Shown one piece after another: positions 26,214 to 30,292 of a DNA stretch of 34,016 nt. Below the pieces are notes generated by a model. The model did not search any database, was not told the DNA's origin, and saw only the letters and a list, made by a program, of their open reading frames with translations. Source of the stretch: Gemmatales bacterium (GTDB lineage: Bacteria; Planctomycetota; Planctomycetia; Gemmatales; HRBIN36). Positions within the stretch are counted from its first letter, which is position 1. Each line of letters starts with the position of its first letter. Location: assembly GCA_025056555.1 (NCBI GenBank), contig JANWVZ010000021.1:1-34016 (forward strand), written 5' to 3'. The translations under genes and the position numbers were made by a program.

Positions 26214-27248
26214 ATGCCTACGCGACTTAGGTCGGCTCTGCATGTAGAAACCCTGGAAGACCGAGACTTGCCCGCAGGCAACGTCAACGTGTTTATCACG
26301 GGCGGAGTCCTCACCATTCAGGGAGATAACGACGCCAACCGTATTCGCATCACGCAGCCGGCGGCGTTCAACTTGCTAGTCAGTCCCGGCGACACTTCGA
26401 CCACCATCAATGGTGGCTTGGGAGCGGTTTCGTTGATAACGGGGGGTGTCAATCGCGTAGTTGTTGACCTGAAGGGGGGCGACGATGTTCTGGAAATCTC
26501 CCCCGGTGGGGGTATCGTCGTGTTCAACGCCCCGGTTTTCATCAACACGGGTAGCGGCAGCGATAGCGTCCTCATCGAAGACATCGTAGCCCATAACCAT
26601 TTCACGATTGATACAGGAAATCAGGGGGATCAAGTCATTCTTCGTTCACCGAGCCGACCGCTTCAGTTCAATCGTGATCTTACTATCCTGACGGGGCAGG
26701 GCCCGGATGTCCTGACCGCGCTGAATGTCGTGCTTCGCGGTTCGTTGCGCTTTGCTACTGCCCAGCAAAATGACCAGGTGCGGTTACAGAACGTAGTCGT
26801 CGGTGGGGAGTTCAATGCCAACCTCGGCTCTGGGGCGGATTTCCTTGCCTTGAACCAGACAGAGGTGCGCGGCCAAGCGTTTGTCGGAGGGGATGCGGGT
26901 AACGACCAGATCATCATTGCACGAGGTCAATTCGACTTTTCGTTGCGGATCGCCACTTCTCAGGCCCCGGGCTTTTTCGCTTCAGACAACGATTTCGTCA
27001 ACGTGCATAACACCTACGTTGCGGGAGATGTCATCATCAGTACGGGCAAAGGTGCGGACTTTGTACGACTGCGCTACAACTTCTTCGGAGCGCAAACCTT
27101 TGTTCACCTGGGTGAGGACAATGATTCGTTGGAATTCGTCGCCACCGATTTTGAGCTGGGCATGGTCGCCCATGGTGGTCTAGGCATTGACACCTTCGTG
27201 GATTTGGGCAGCAACACGGGTCTGGTGCAGCTAGAAAGCTTCCCGTAA
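26214..27248 (+). CDS. Planctomycete surface-type protein with VExLEDRxxP motif and beta-solenoid-like repeats
   Basis: This 344-residue protein has the N-terminal motif HVETLEDRDLPAG at residues 10-22, a planctomycete hallmark (LEPR-XLL-like) found near the start of many large surface or extracellular proteins; no classic signal peptide is present. The rest consists of imperfect repeats of about 20-25 residues with glycine/aspartate turns (GGDDVLEISPGGG, GSGSDSVLIEDI, GNQGDQVILRS, GSGADFLALNQ, GEDNDSLEFVA), suggesting a right-handed beta-solenoid with possible calcium-binding turns like RTX. The start has GGAG about 10 nt upstream. The gene at 27739 is a diverged paralogue with the same plan. 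Function is unknown; the surface location is inferred. Confidence 0.85.
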   Translation: MPTRLRSALHVETLEDRDLPAGNVNVFITGGVLTIQGDNDANRIRITQPAAFNLLVSPGDTSTTINGGLGAVSLITGGVNRVVVDLKGGDDVLEISPGGGIVVFNAPVFINTGSGSDSVLIEDIVAHNHFTIDTGNQGDQVILRSPSRPLQFNRDLTILTGQGPDVLTALNVVLRGSLRFATAQQNDQVRLQNVVVGGEFNANLGSGADFLALNQTEVRGQAFVGGDAGNDQIIIARGQFDFSLRIATSQAPGFFASDNDFVNVHNTYVAGDVIISTGKGADFVRLRYNFFGAQTFVHLGEDNDSLEFVATDFELGMVAHGGLGIDTFVDLGSNTGLVQLESFP

Positions 27249-27738
27249 TTCCAAAAAAATTGAAAAATAGACTTGATCCTCAGGCTTAGATGGATTATAA
27301 GAGATACATAAGATTTTCCCAGGTCATTAATTCGAACGAAAATAGTAGCTTTTACGAAACTACGGAATCTTGAAGAGCGGATATGATTCGCCTCACAGTC
27401 ATGCTGAACACGAAGGCTGGCGCCGCGGAATTGATGTGCTGTGGAGTATAGCGCATAGGTCTGTCCAATTTCATTGCCAGCACACGAAAGGCCATACATG
27501 GACTGTGCAACTTGTTATTCAGGAAGGAAATACTCCCTGCGCAAGATTCCTTCGACGAACGAACTCCCCTGGCATTACATCTGCGGCCGCGAGAATGTGA
27601 GTGTGGCCGGGACAGTGATGACAACCTTGGGTCCGGAGCGATTCGGCACCGATTCGGTACATGCGATAGATCAGCGTGCGGTACGCTGACGCCGAATTGA
27701 TGGCGCCGACGCTCCATCATCAGGAGGTCTTTGGGACC
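27249..27738. other. Spacer between the two surface-protein genes
   Basis: I find no gene or strong terminator. A good SD (AGGAGG at 27722-27727) marks the end of the spacer. The track ORFs here overlap in four frames and have no signature. Confidence 0.5.
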
Positions 27739-28821
27739 ATGCGCAGCAAGCATTACACCACCTTGCGTGTCGAGCAGCTCGACGATCGCATCACGCCGGA
27801 CGTCGGCACAGTATTGGGAGGCGCGGGAAACGTCCAGGCGTATCTATCCGGAGGCAACCTGTACATTATTGGCGACGGCGTTGGCAATAGTTTGGCGCTA
27901 TGGAACGTTACCCCGAACGCCATCCGCATTCAAGGGAGCGGTACTACCATTAACGGCTCTTCAACCGCTCAGGTCTTTGCTTTGGGTGCCGGTAGGTCGG
28001 TATTCATCAACCTGCGCGGCGGCGACGACTTCATCGTACTCGGCGATAACTTAAATGATGTTAATGGCCTAAGCCTCAGCATTCTCGGTAACCTCCGCAT
28101 AGATTTGGGTGCTGGTCATAACACGGTGGGTTTGGAAAACCTTTACGTAGGAGGCACGACTACCGTTCGAGCCGCCGATGGTAATGATACGCTGGACATT
28201 GACACTACGCTGGGCCAGCCTTCTTTCTTCAAGGGCAACGTAAGTTCTACCTTGGGCGCTGGTACTAACATCGTGACAGGTAGCACTTTTGGTATCGGTG
28301 GTAATCTCAGCCTGACCACAGGCGATGACGATGACACCATTAACTTGGCCAATGCCACTGTTGCAAAGAACCTGCTCATAGCGGCCAACGACGGTGATAA
28401 CAACATCACCATAACCGACAGCGACGTGAATGGCAACATCACACGTATCTCGACGGGAGTGGGCGACGATGACATTGAGTTAGACAGCAGCGACTTCAAG
28501 CGACTCTTCATCGTGGCCGGCGATGGCGCTAATAACGTAGACGTGGGCGTGGCCGGCGGCGGCGTGACTGCAGTGAGTGTGTCTGTAACGACCGGAGAAG
28601 GTGCTGATACGGTCAACATTACCGATAGCGACTTCCAGCTGGCCTCGTCGGTTTCCACGGGCGATGATGATGATACAATCAACGTGAGCGGCTCCGACTT
28701 CCTGGGCGGACTGACGGTAGATGGCGGCGCTGAAACTTCCGCTGACACCTTCAACGGCTTGGCGGCTGTGTTTGGGAACACCGGGATTATTACACTAATT
28801 GACATCGAAACCTCGACCTAA
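27739..28821 (+). CDS. Planctomycete surface-type protein with VExLDDRxxP motif and Asp-rich repeats
   Basis: I start at the ATG at 27739, 11 nt after AGGAGG, giving 360 residues; the longer ORF adds 21 unrelated ones. The motif RVEQLDDRITPDV has its V-E-x-L-x-D-R-x-x-P at residues 11-20, exactly as in the upstream paralogue. The C-terminal two thirds carry repeats with very acidic turns: TGDDDDTINLANA, NDGDNNITITDSDV, GVGDDDIELDSSDF, GEGADTVNITDSDF, GDDDDTINVSGSDF. Each turn is followed by a short beta strand, so a calcium-stabilised beta-solenoid is likely but unproven. Regular DSDF steps point to internal duplication. The terminator at 28944-28979 ends the transcript. Confidence 0.87.
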   Translation: MRSKHYTTLRVEQLDDRITPDVGTVLGGAGNVQAYLSGGNLYIIGDGVGNSLALWNVTPNAIRIQGSGTTINGSSTAQVFALGAGRSVFINLRGGDDFIVLGDNLNDVNGLSLSILGNLRIDLGAGHNTVGLENLYVGGTTTVRAADGNDTLDIDTTLGQPSFFKGNVSSTLGAGTNIVTGSTFGIGGNLSLTTGDDDDTINLANATVAKNLLIAANDGDNNITITDSDVNGNITRISTGVGDDDIELDSSDFKRLFIVAGDGANNVDVGVAGGGVTAVSVSVTTGEGADTVNITDSDFQLASSVSTGDDDDTINVSGSDFLGGLTVDGGAETSADTFNGLAAVFGNTGIITLIDIETST

Positions 28822-29223: not shown

Positions 29224-29517
29224 TCAGCCCCCGACGTCGGCCGAGAGAATCAGAACGGTCTGGCCGGCTGCAACTGCGAGCTGGAGGTCGCGGACGAATC
29301 CGTGGCTGTCCAGGGCGAGGCGATACCACGGGGCAAGCTCCCCAGATGAATCAAGCAGATCTTGCCAATGGGGGAACCGTTCTTGCACTTGTCTGAGCAC
29401 ATCCCTGAGCGTACCGGGCTGCACTCGGCATCGCGCGCACCCCGTACGCAACCTCGGCACGCCGAGAAACTCCACTACCACGCTCTGCTCTTCACGAACA
29501 GTCTCTGCCGACTTCAT
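29224..29517 (-). CDS. MoaD/ThiS-family ubiquitin-like sulfur carrier
   Basis: This 97-residue protein, read from the ATG at 29517 (MKSAETVREEQSVVVEFLG), has a ubiquitin-like beta-grasp pattern: VVVEFLGVPRLRTG, TLRDVLRQVQERFPHWQDLL, then AAGQTVLILSADVGG. It ends exactly at Gly-Gly, as needed for adenylation and thiocarboxylate formation in MoaD and ThiS. The ORF can extend upstream to 29613, but that part spans an AT-rich hairpin and is unlike the family; the SD at 29517 is weak, so the start is not certain. No moa, thi or E1-like partner gene is in the window, so pathway (molybdopterin, thiamine or other sulfur transfer) is open. Confidence 0.8.
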   Translation of the reverse strand: MKSAETVREEQSVVVEFLGVPRLRTGCARCRVQPGTLRDVLRQVQERFPHWQDLLDSSGELAPWYRLALDSHGFVRDLQLAVAAGQTVLILSADVGG

Positions 29518-29582: not shown

Positions 29583-29602
29583 CCGCAAAAATTTTTTTGC
29601 GG
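29583..29602. other. Perfect A/T-rich hairpin upstream of the MoaD/ThiS-like gene
   Basis: CCGCAAAAATTTTTTTGCGG: an 8-bp stem CCGCAAAA/TTTTGCGG with loop ATTT. It lies between the sulfur-carrier gene and the divergent ncRNA candidate, and overlaps the extended N-terminus of the longer ORF. Confidence 0.6.
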
Positions 29603-29648
29603 GGACTGGCCACACCCTGGCCGATTTCGTATTCTCATTATCGGTACA

Positions 29649-29955
29649 GGGACGAAAGCAGGCAGGACAGCCCGAAAATCAGCTTGTATTATCAAGCCTA
29701 TGGCCCCGGACCCCAGCTTGGTGGATTTCAGTAGAAGTCGCCACGGCTGGAACATGGTGGGCCACATAAAGCGAGGGCAGTCCAGCGGCGGGTGCATGTC
29801 CGCTGCATGTGCCAAAAGAGCTGTCGGCAGACCGCACCAAGAGGAGTGGCCTGCGGCCCAAGCGGGTAGCTCCGCGACACATGCCTCGAACGTGCAATGA
29901 GTCAAAGCCTGCTTTCGTAGTTCCACCCCGGCCTCTGTGCCGGGGTTTTCTTTTT
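29649..29955 (+). ncRNA. Probable structured non-coding RNA of unassigned family
   Basis: ACGAAAGCAGGC (29652-29663) is the exact reverse complement of GCCTGCTTTCGT (29907-29918), a perfect 12-bp stem joining the two ends of a 267-nt region. Inner helices are also visible: GCTTG/CAAGC (loop TATTAT, about 29682-29697), CAGCGG/CCGCTG (about 29783-29805), and GCGG/CCGC (loop GTAGCT, about 29862-29875). Seven nt after the closing stem an intrinsic terminator begins. A weak -10-like CATTAT (29636-29641) would start transcription near 29649. I looked for RNase P (GAGGAAAGTCC, ACAGAA), tmRNA (tRNA-like T arm, tag ORF) and SRP (GGAAGG/AGCAGCC) signatures and found none. A 6S-like or lineage-specific RNA is possible; a 66-codon ORF inside does not look coding. 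Confidence 0.6.
29926..29955 (+). terminator. Strong intrinsic terminator after the ncRNA candidate
   Basis: CCCCGGC and GCCGGGG form a 7-bp GC stem with loop CTCTGT, followed at once by TTTTCTTTTT. No protein gene on the plus strand ends near it (the nearest stop is over 1 kb upstream and has its own terminator), which supports a separate RNA transcript. Confidence 0.85.
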
Positions 29956-30197: not shown

Positions 30198-30225
30198 TTG
30201 ACCTATGGAGCAGCGATGGTATAAT
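30198..30225 (+). promoter_or_regulatory. Strong promoter of the fourth DUF1559 gene
   Basis: TTGACC, 16 bp, TATAAT (perfect), with an extended -10 (TGG before TATAAT). Transcription would begin near 30232, about 60 nt before the ATG at 30293. The remaining spacer from 29956 holds no other feature. Confidence 0.7.
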
Positions 30226-30292
30226 TAGGTAAAACTAAATGCGCGGTGTTTTACGTTGGTTTATGAGTAACCTTCGGATGGAGGAAGACTGC

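Follow-up and report, generated by a model that had tools for sequence, protein, structure and literature searches.

The window analysed here, a stretch of 34,016 nucleotides (positions 1 to 34,016, contig JANWVZ010000021.1, Gemmatales bacterium assembly GCA_025056555.1), carries on its plus strand a predicted RNA gene, set between a sulfur-carrier-like open reading frame and a DUF1559 pseudopilin-like gene. Comparison of the copies described below shows a predicted architecture in which P1, a long stem, closes the molecule around a variable P2 arm and a conserved 3' domain with a three-way junction at its end; an intrinsic terminator follows (Table 1). The sulfur-carrier-like frame (29224-29514, minus strand, 97 aa) has a Gly-Gly end as in MoaD/ThiS and no Pfam match at E 0.001; its identity as a sulfur carrier is unproven from sequence, and no relatives of the protein were found in viral contigs. 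Further upstream, 27676-28821 (plus strand) encodes a 381-aa acidic, D/N-rich repetitive protein, possibly secreted, that has no Pfam match. The downstream pseudopilin-like gene (at 30239) has its own near-consensus promoter, TTGACC-16-TATAAT, at 30198-30225 on the plus strand, with an upstream TG and 11/12 matches.

Table 1. Parts of the predicted RNA gene and of the region just upstream of it, in window coordinates
Feature	Coordinates	Strand	Basis
Whole RNA gene (structured core and terminator)	29649..29955	+	fold z, homologues, covariance model R1
P1, 5' strand of 12-bp closing stem (ACGAAAGCAGGC)	29652..29663	+	exact match, compensatory changes
P1, 3' strand of 12-bp closing stem (exact reverse complement of 5' strand)	29907..29918	+	exact match, compensatory changes
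P2, 5' strand GGAC-A-GCCC, conserved GAA next	29665..29673	+	two pairs with double changes
P2, 3' strand GGGC-A-GUCC	29775..29783	+	partner of P2 5' strand, alignment helix 2
Variable 5' arm	29674..29774	+	fold and alignment
5' arm, small hairpin	29682..29697	+	
5' arm, long hairpin	29713..29750	+	
Conserved 3' domain, stacked helices leading to three-way junction at end	29784..29906	+	fold, alignment
Three-way junction	29818..29872	+	helices 8-10 of alignment
Junction, GAGCU/AGCUC stem		+	
Junction, helix	29827..29854	+	
Junction, hairpin GCCC-AAGC-GGGU	29856..29867	+	
Intrinsic terminator, hairpin ACCCCGGC-CTCTGT-GCCGGGGT, tail TTTCTTTTT	29925..29955	+	hairpin and tail in the sequence; same place in 4/4 members
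Upstream element, probably promoter region or operator	29587..29623	+	alignment and distant-copy sequence
Upstream element, A5T7 tract	29587..29598	+	
Upstream element, dyad TGGCCA-CACCC-TGGCCG	29607..29623	+	

Both arms of P1 are exact and lie where a first-pass annotation of the sequence had placed them, as do the inner hairpins, and the terminator that it described seven nucleotides past the stem was seen at a spacing of six to seven. Its further argument, that a 12-bp match of this kind is unlikely by chance, holds for the 307-nt locus, where such an inverted repeat appeared in 2/2000 shuffles, but not for the 34-kb window, which after shuffling held on average 0.5 12-bp inverted repeats with arms 150-300 nt apart; the P1 stem by itself is therefore weak evidence. 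The locus folds with a predicted energy of -140.1 kcal/mol (z = -4.70), and z is -4.29 when the terminator is left off, with no shuffle equally stable in either case; inspection by eye found no loop-loop pseudoknots. What is decisive for a predicted structured RNA is the comparative evidence, namely the homologues and their alignment.

The same-genus genome of Gemmatales bacterium SKYB77 contains the RNA twice. The syntenic copy, 97% identical and with the same neighbours on either side, has 0/145 differences from the window copy over 29774-29918; the other is a paralogue of 86% identity, located on a different contig and divergent from an APC permease gene (named by eye from its translation), with 15 differences over the same 145 positions. 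The variable 5' arm holds 20 of the 40 differences between window copy and paralogue. The permease is also present in the window's genome, and SKYB77 DNA beyond it finds no match at that contig, so that the paralogue would be either absent from this genome, which is 87% complete, or unassembled. On the permease contig of the window's genome, the similarity to SKYB77 stops where the permease gene begins (position 26818 onwards), and the second SKYB77 copy sits at that break.

A covariance model (R1) made from the window copy, the syntenic copy and the paralogue, leaving out the distant homologue, was searched against 102 genomes of the order and found one further member (62.8 bits, E 3.2e-16), on a 10315-bp contig of Planctomycetota bacterium Centralia_MAG_199, which belongs to another Gemmatales family. 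In this distant copy the 5' arm is extended and rebuilt, and the three-way junction is the best-kept block. When the distant homologue is folded by itself (z -4.74), P1, the first arm, the 3' domain and the terminator all reappear. By-eye naming of translations places a P-type ATPase and a thioredoxin next to it; an apparently frameshifted P-type ATPase-like fragment (2166-2690 of locus L072) lies just upstream of the RNA, and a long P-type ATPase gene lies downstream on the opposite strand.

In the alignment of the four members, which was fitted to the structure and comprises essentially two lineages, so that most double changes trace to one divergence, 20 of the 96 pairs show double changes, against a shuffled mean of 6.2 (0/500 shuffles reach 20) and 1-3 pairs in slid-structure controls; RNAalifold on the same alignment likewise yields 20. 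The distant member's P1 (GGGAGAGAGGGC/GCCCUCUCUUCC) again has 12 pairs, of which two are G-U or shifted relative to the consensus, and is anchored by the conserved GGC-A-GG and CAAAGCC. The first-pass annotation had proposed that its RNA be judged by conservation in related genomes and by covariation in P1; homologues were found, 6 of the 12 P1 pairs carry double compensatory changes across the four members, and the proposal was not refuted. The locus is almost certainly a real structured RNA family. Protein coding was considered and rejected: there is no conserved start, the minus-strand frame is broken in the syntenic copy, and substitutions between window copy and paralogue are spread without bias over codon positions (11/15/11 in the only open frame that the two share), with 25 of the codon changes non-synonymous and 5 synonymous.

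Fold energy leaves the strand undecided, because the fold of the reverse complement is just as good (z -5.65). The assignment to the plus strand comes from the terminators, which have their T-tract on that strand in all four members, as the first-pass annotation had read from the window copy; from a promoter directly 5' of the stem in the distant copy (TTGCCA-17-TATAAT, recognised by eye); and from the excess of G-U pairs, 32 cells on the plus strand versus 3 that are G-U on the minus strand only, an excess that is partly built in, the plus strand being the one used to derive the structure. At the matching place the window copy shares only the A/T tract and the dyad. A 5-6-bp dyad also occurs at the corresponding place upstream of the paralogue (CTAGC-CACCT-GCTGG) and of the distant homologue (CTGGC-ACCCCCTT-GCCAG), and the base changes among the three versions preserve the palindrome. 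The RNA gene, whose downstream neighbour has a promoter-like site of its own, is thus predicted to be an independent, stand-alone transcription unit.

The RNA is present in 2/2 genomes of the genus, 0/5 in the rest of the family and 1/95 in the sister family, all of the carriers being uncultured metagenome-assembled genomes. A second model (R2), a search device only, adds the distant member after its arm and minor insertions had been masked or removed. Samples of the class (398 genomes) and the phylum (392) gave no credible match, the large searches being run under stricter filters: the weak R1 matches in order, class and phylum whose alignments were inspected comprised the terminator only, and those of R2 were partial and low-scoring. 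BLAST matches of the distant member within its own family (three read, ten rescored) included no homologue. An exact core pattern, which overlooks diverged members, was found across 85,462 GTDB representative genomes only in the SKYB77 and Centralia copies and in a single Actinomycetota match, which scores with neither model and is attributed to chance. The same pattern had no match in viral contigs; 14 viral contigs picked up by a relaxed pattern gave no model score, and BLAST matches in phages and plasmids covered the terminator hairpin alone. By these searches the predicted family is rare, known so far from three uncultured planctomycete genomes only, and its patchiness argues against an essential role.

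The suggestion of an undescribed planctomycete RNA, one of several made in the first-pass annotation, is borne out by the homologues, the compensatory changes, the RNA's own terminator and the lack of any Rfam match. We think it likely that the locus represents, as its first described member, a new Gemmatales RNA family, about 270-300 nt long, highly structured, stand-alone and, since the gene contexts of its copies differ, trans-encoded, whose members serve as folded scaffolds. The RNA would be transcribed from its own promoter and would act in trans, most likely inside a ribonucleoprotein, with a predicted binding core formed by the conserved 3' domain and the P1/P2/P3 junction. Conservation in the core extends to paired as well as unpaired positions, which would not be the case in a seed-only antisense RNA, and the retention of both helices and unpaired junction segments across the 3' domain suggests a folded scaffold, not an antisense seed. 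It is this scaffold-like conservation that makes a ribonucleoprotein-type RNA the preferred reading, with an antisense sRNA and a ribozyme as rivals; for the mechanism taken separately, we lean only slightly towards the scaffold. The analysis turned up neither a partner protein nor a target, and no conserved neighbour. Bacteria have few RNAs that are large, highly structured and stand-alone, and several of these have exposed unusual biology; in the Planctomycete phylum, to our knowledge, non-coding RNAs have hardly been catalogued. The new family comes with a secondary structure open to testing, one genome has two paralogues of it, and a divergent homologue confirms the fold; its narrow and patchy distribution points to a lineage-specific factor that needs explanation. 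That it might constitute a whole new class of large functional RNA, either the core of a ribonucleoprotein or a ribozyme working by a mechanism of its own, found in a few uncultured Gemmatales lineages only, is a doubtful proposition at present.

A trans-acting antisense sRNA, whose exposed loops would pair with mRNAs while the remainder served as a stabilising scaffold, is possible but rather unlikely. In keeping with it, the gene stands alone and ends in an intrinsic terminator, one genome has two paralogues, the distribution is patchy, as is usual for sRNAs, and there are unpaired purine-rich segments. Against it, typical sRNAs are smaller and less deeply structured than this RNA, and conservation takes in helices and junctions throughout the 3' domain instead of one seed. 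We regard as improbable a catalytic RNA, or the remnant of an RNA element that was mobile or self-splicing. The compact multi-helix fold with its conserved junction core, the patchy spread, and the presence of a copy in one species where the same place in the other has no match would suit such an element; against it, Rfam returned no intron or ribozyme match even at relaxed threshold, none of the genes recognised beside the copies encodes a reverse transcriptase, transposase or endonuclease, and the RNA has its own terminator and transcription unit.

On the minus strand, the region might be a leader, as the first-pass annotation had also suggested, or a riboswitch, serving the sulfur-carrier-like gene that ends at 29224 and starts about 130 nt away on that strand, and the stable fold of the reverse complement would allow it. 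A leader would be expected to keep its place and orientation in front of related genes, and this was not found: no neighbouring gene is common to the copies examined, the paralogue and the distant homologue adjoin other genes, every copy has its terminator on the plus strand, and the G-U balance, though partly favoured by the plus-strand derivation, points the same way. Since the neighbours differ among copies, the RNA is no leader of this gene, and we consider such a role very improbable. Least credible of all, close to negligible, is a divergent housekeeping RNA (6S, RNase P, tmRNA or SRP), which the closing stem, independent transcription and size superficially recall, and the 6S-like RNA of the first-pass annotation has to be given up: RNase P RNA is encoded elsewhere in the window's genome (265.5 bits) and 6S RNA elsewhere, above the Rfam cut-off, in 3/3 carrier genomes, so that this RNA is neither, and no member has an Rfam match.

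The putative scaffold RNA can be set against known families in more than one respect. Rfam 15 at the gathering threshold reports only a tRNA-Ala in the window; at relaxed threshold the locus is matched by sRNA families below their cut-offs, chiefly through the terminator, and the homologues give nothing better than the window copy. The best of these scores, to anti-hemB (RF02837), is 20.9 bits against a gathering threshold of 49.5, and its strong part is the generic terminator hairpin. The missing hallmarks of RNase P RNA, tmRNA and SRP RNA, already remarked on in the first-pass annotation, agree with these searches: ARAGORN, which looks for the tRNA-like ends and tag reading frame of tmRNA, reports on the window the tRNA-Ala only, and the SRP families of Rfam at relaxed threshold have no match at the locus. 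Our literature search returned general surveys only for planctomycete structured RNA and nothing for planctomycete 6S RNA.

With 6S RNA (RF00013) the RNA has in common that it is independent and apparently trans-acting, with a P1-type closing stem and a similar size class, but 6S RNA forms one rod, its large central bubble mimicking an open promoter, whereas the present RNA is predicted to have a branched two-domain fold; the RF00013 covariance model gives no score at the locus. Bacterial RNase P RNA (RF00010) likewise has a long closing helix and a branched, compact fold and stands alone, and its model gives no score there either. A further comparison is with the orphan structured bacterial non-coding RNAs, such as the 104 candidates described in PMC2864571: differing from them in that it matches no family of Rfam 15, the RNA resembles them in its conserved structure, its intergenic position, its stand-alone character and its orphan function.
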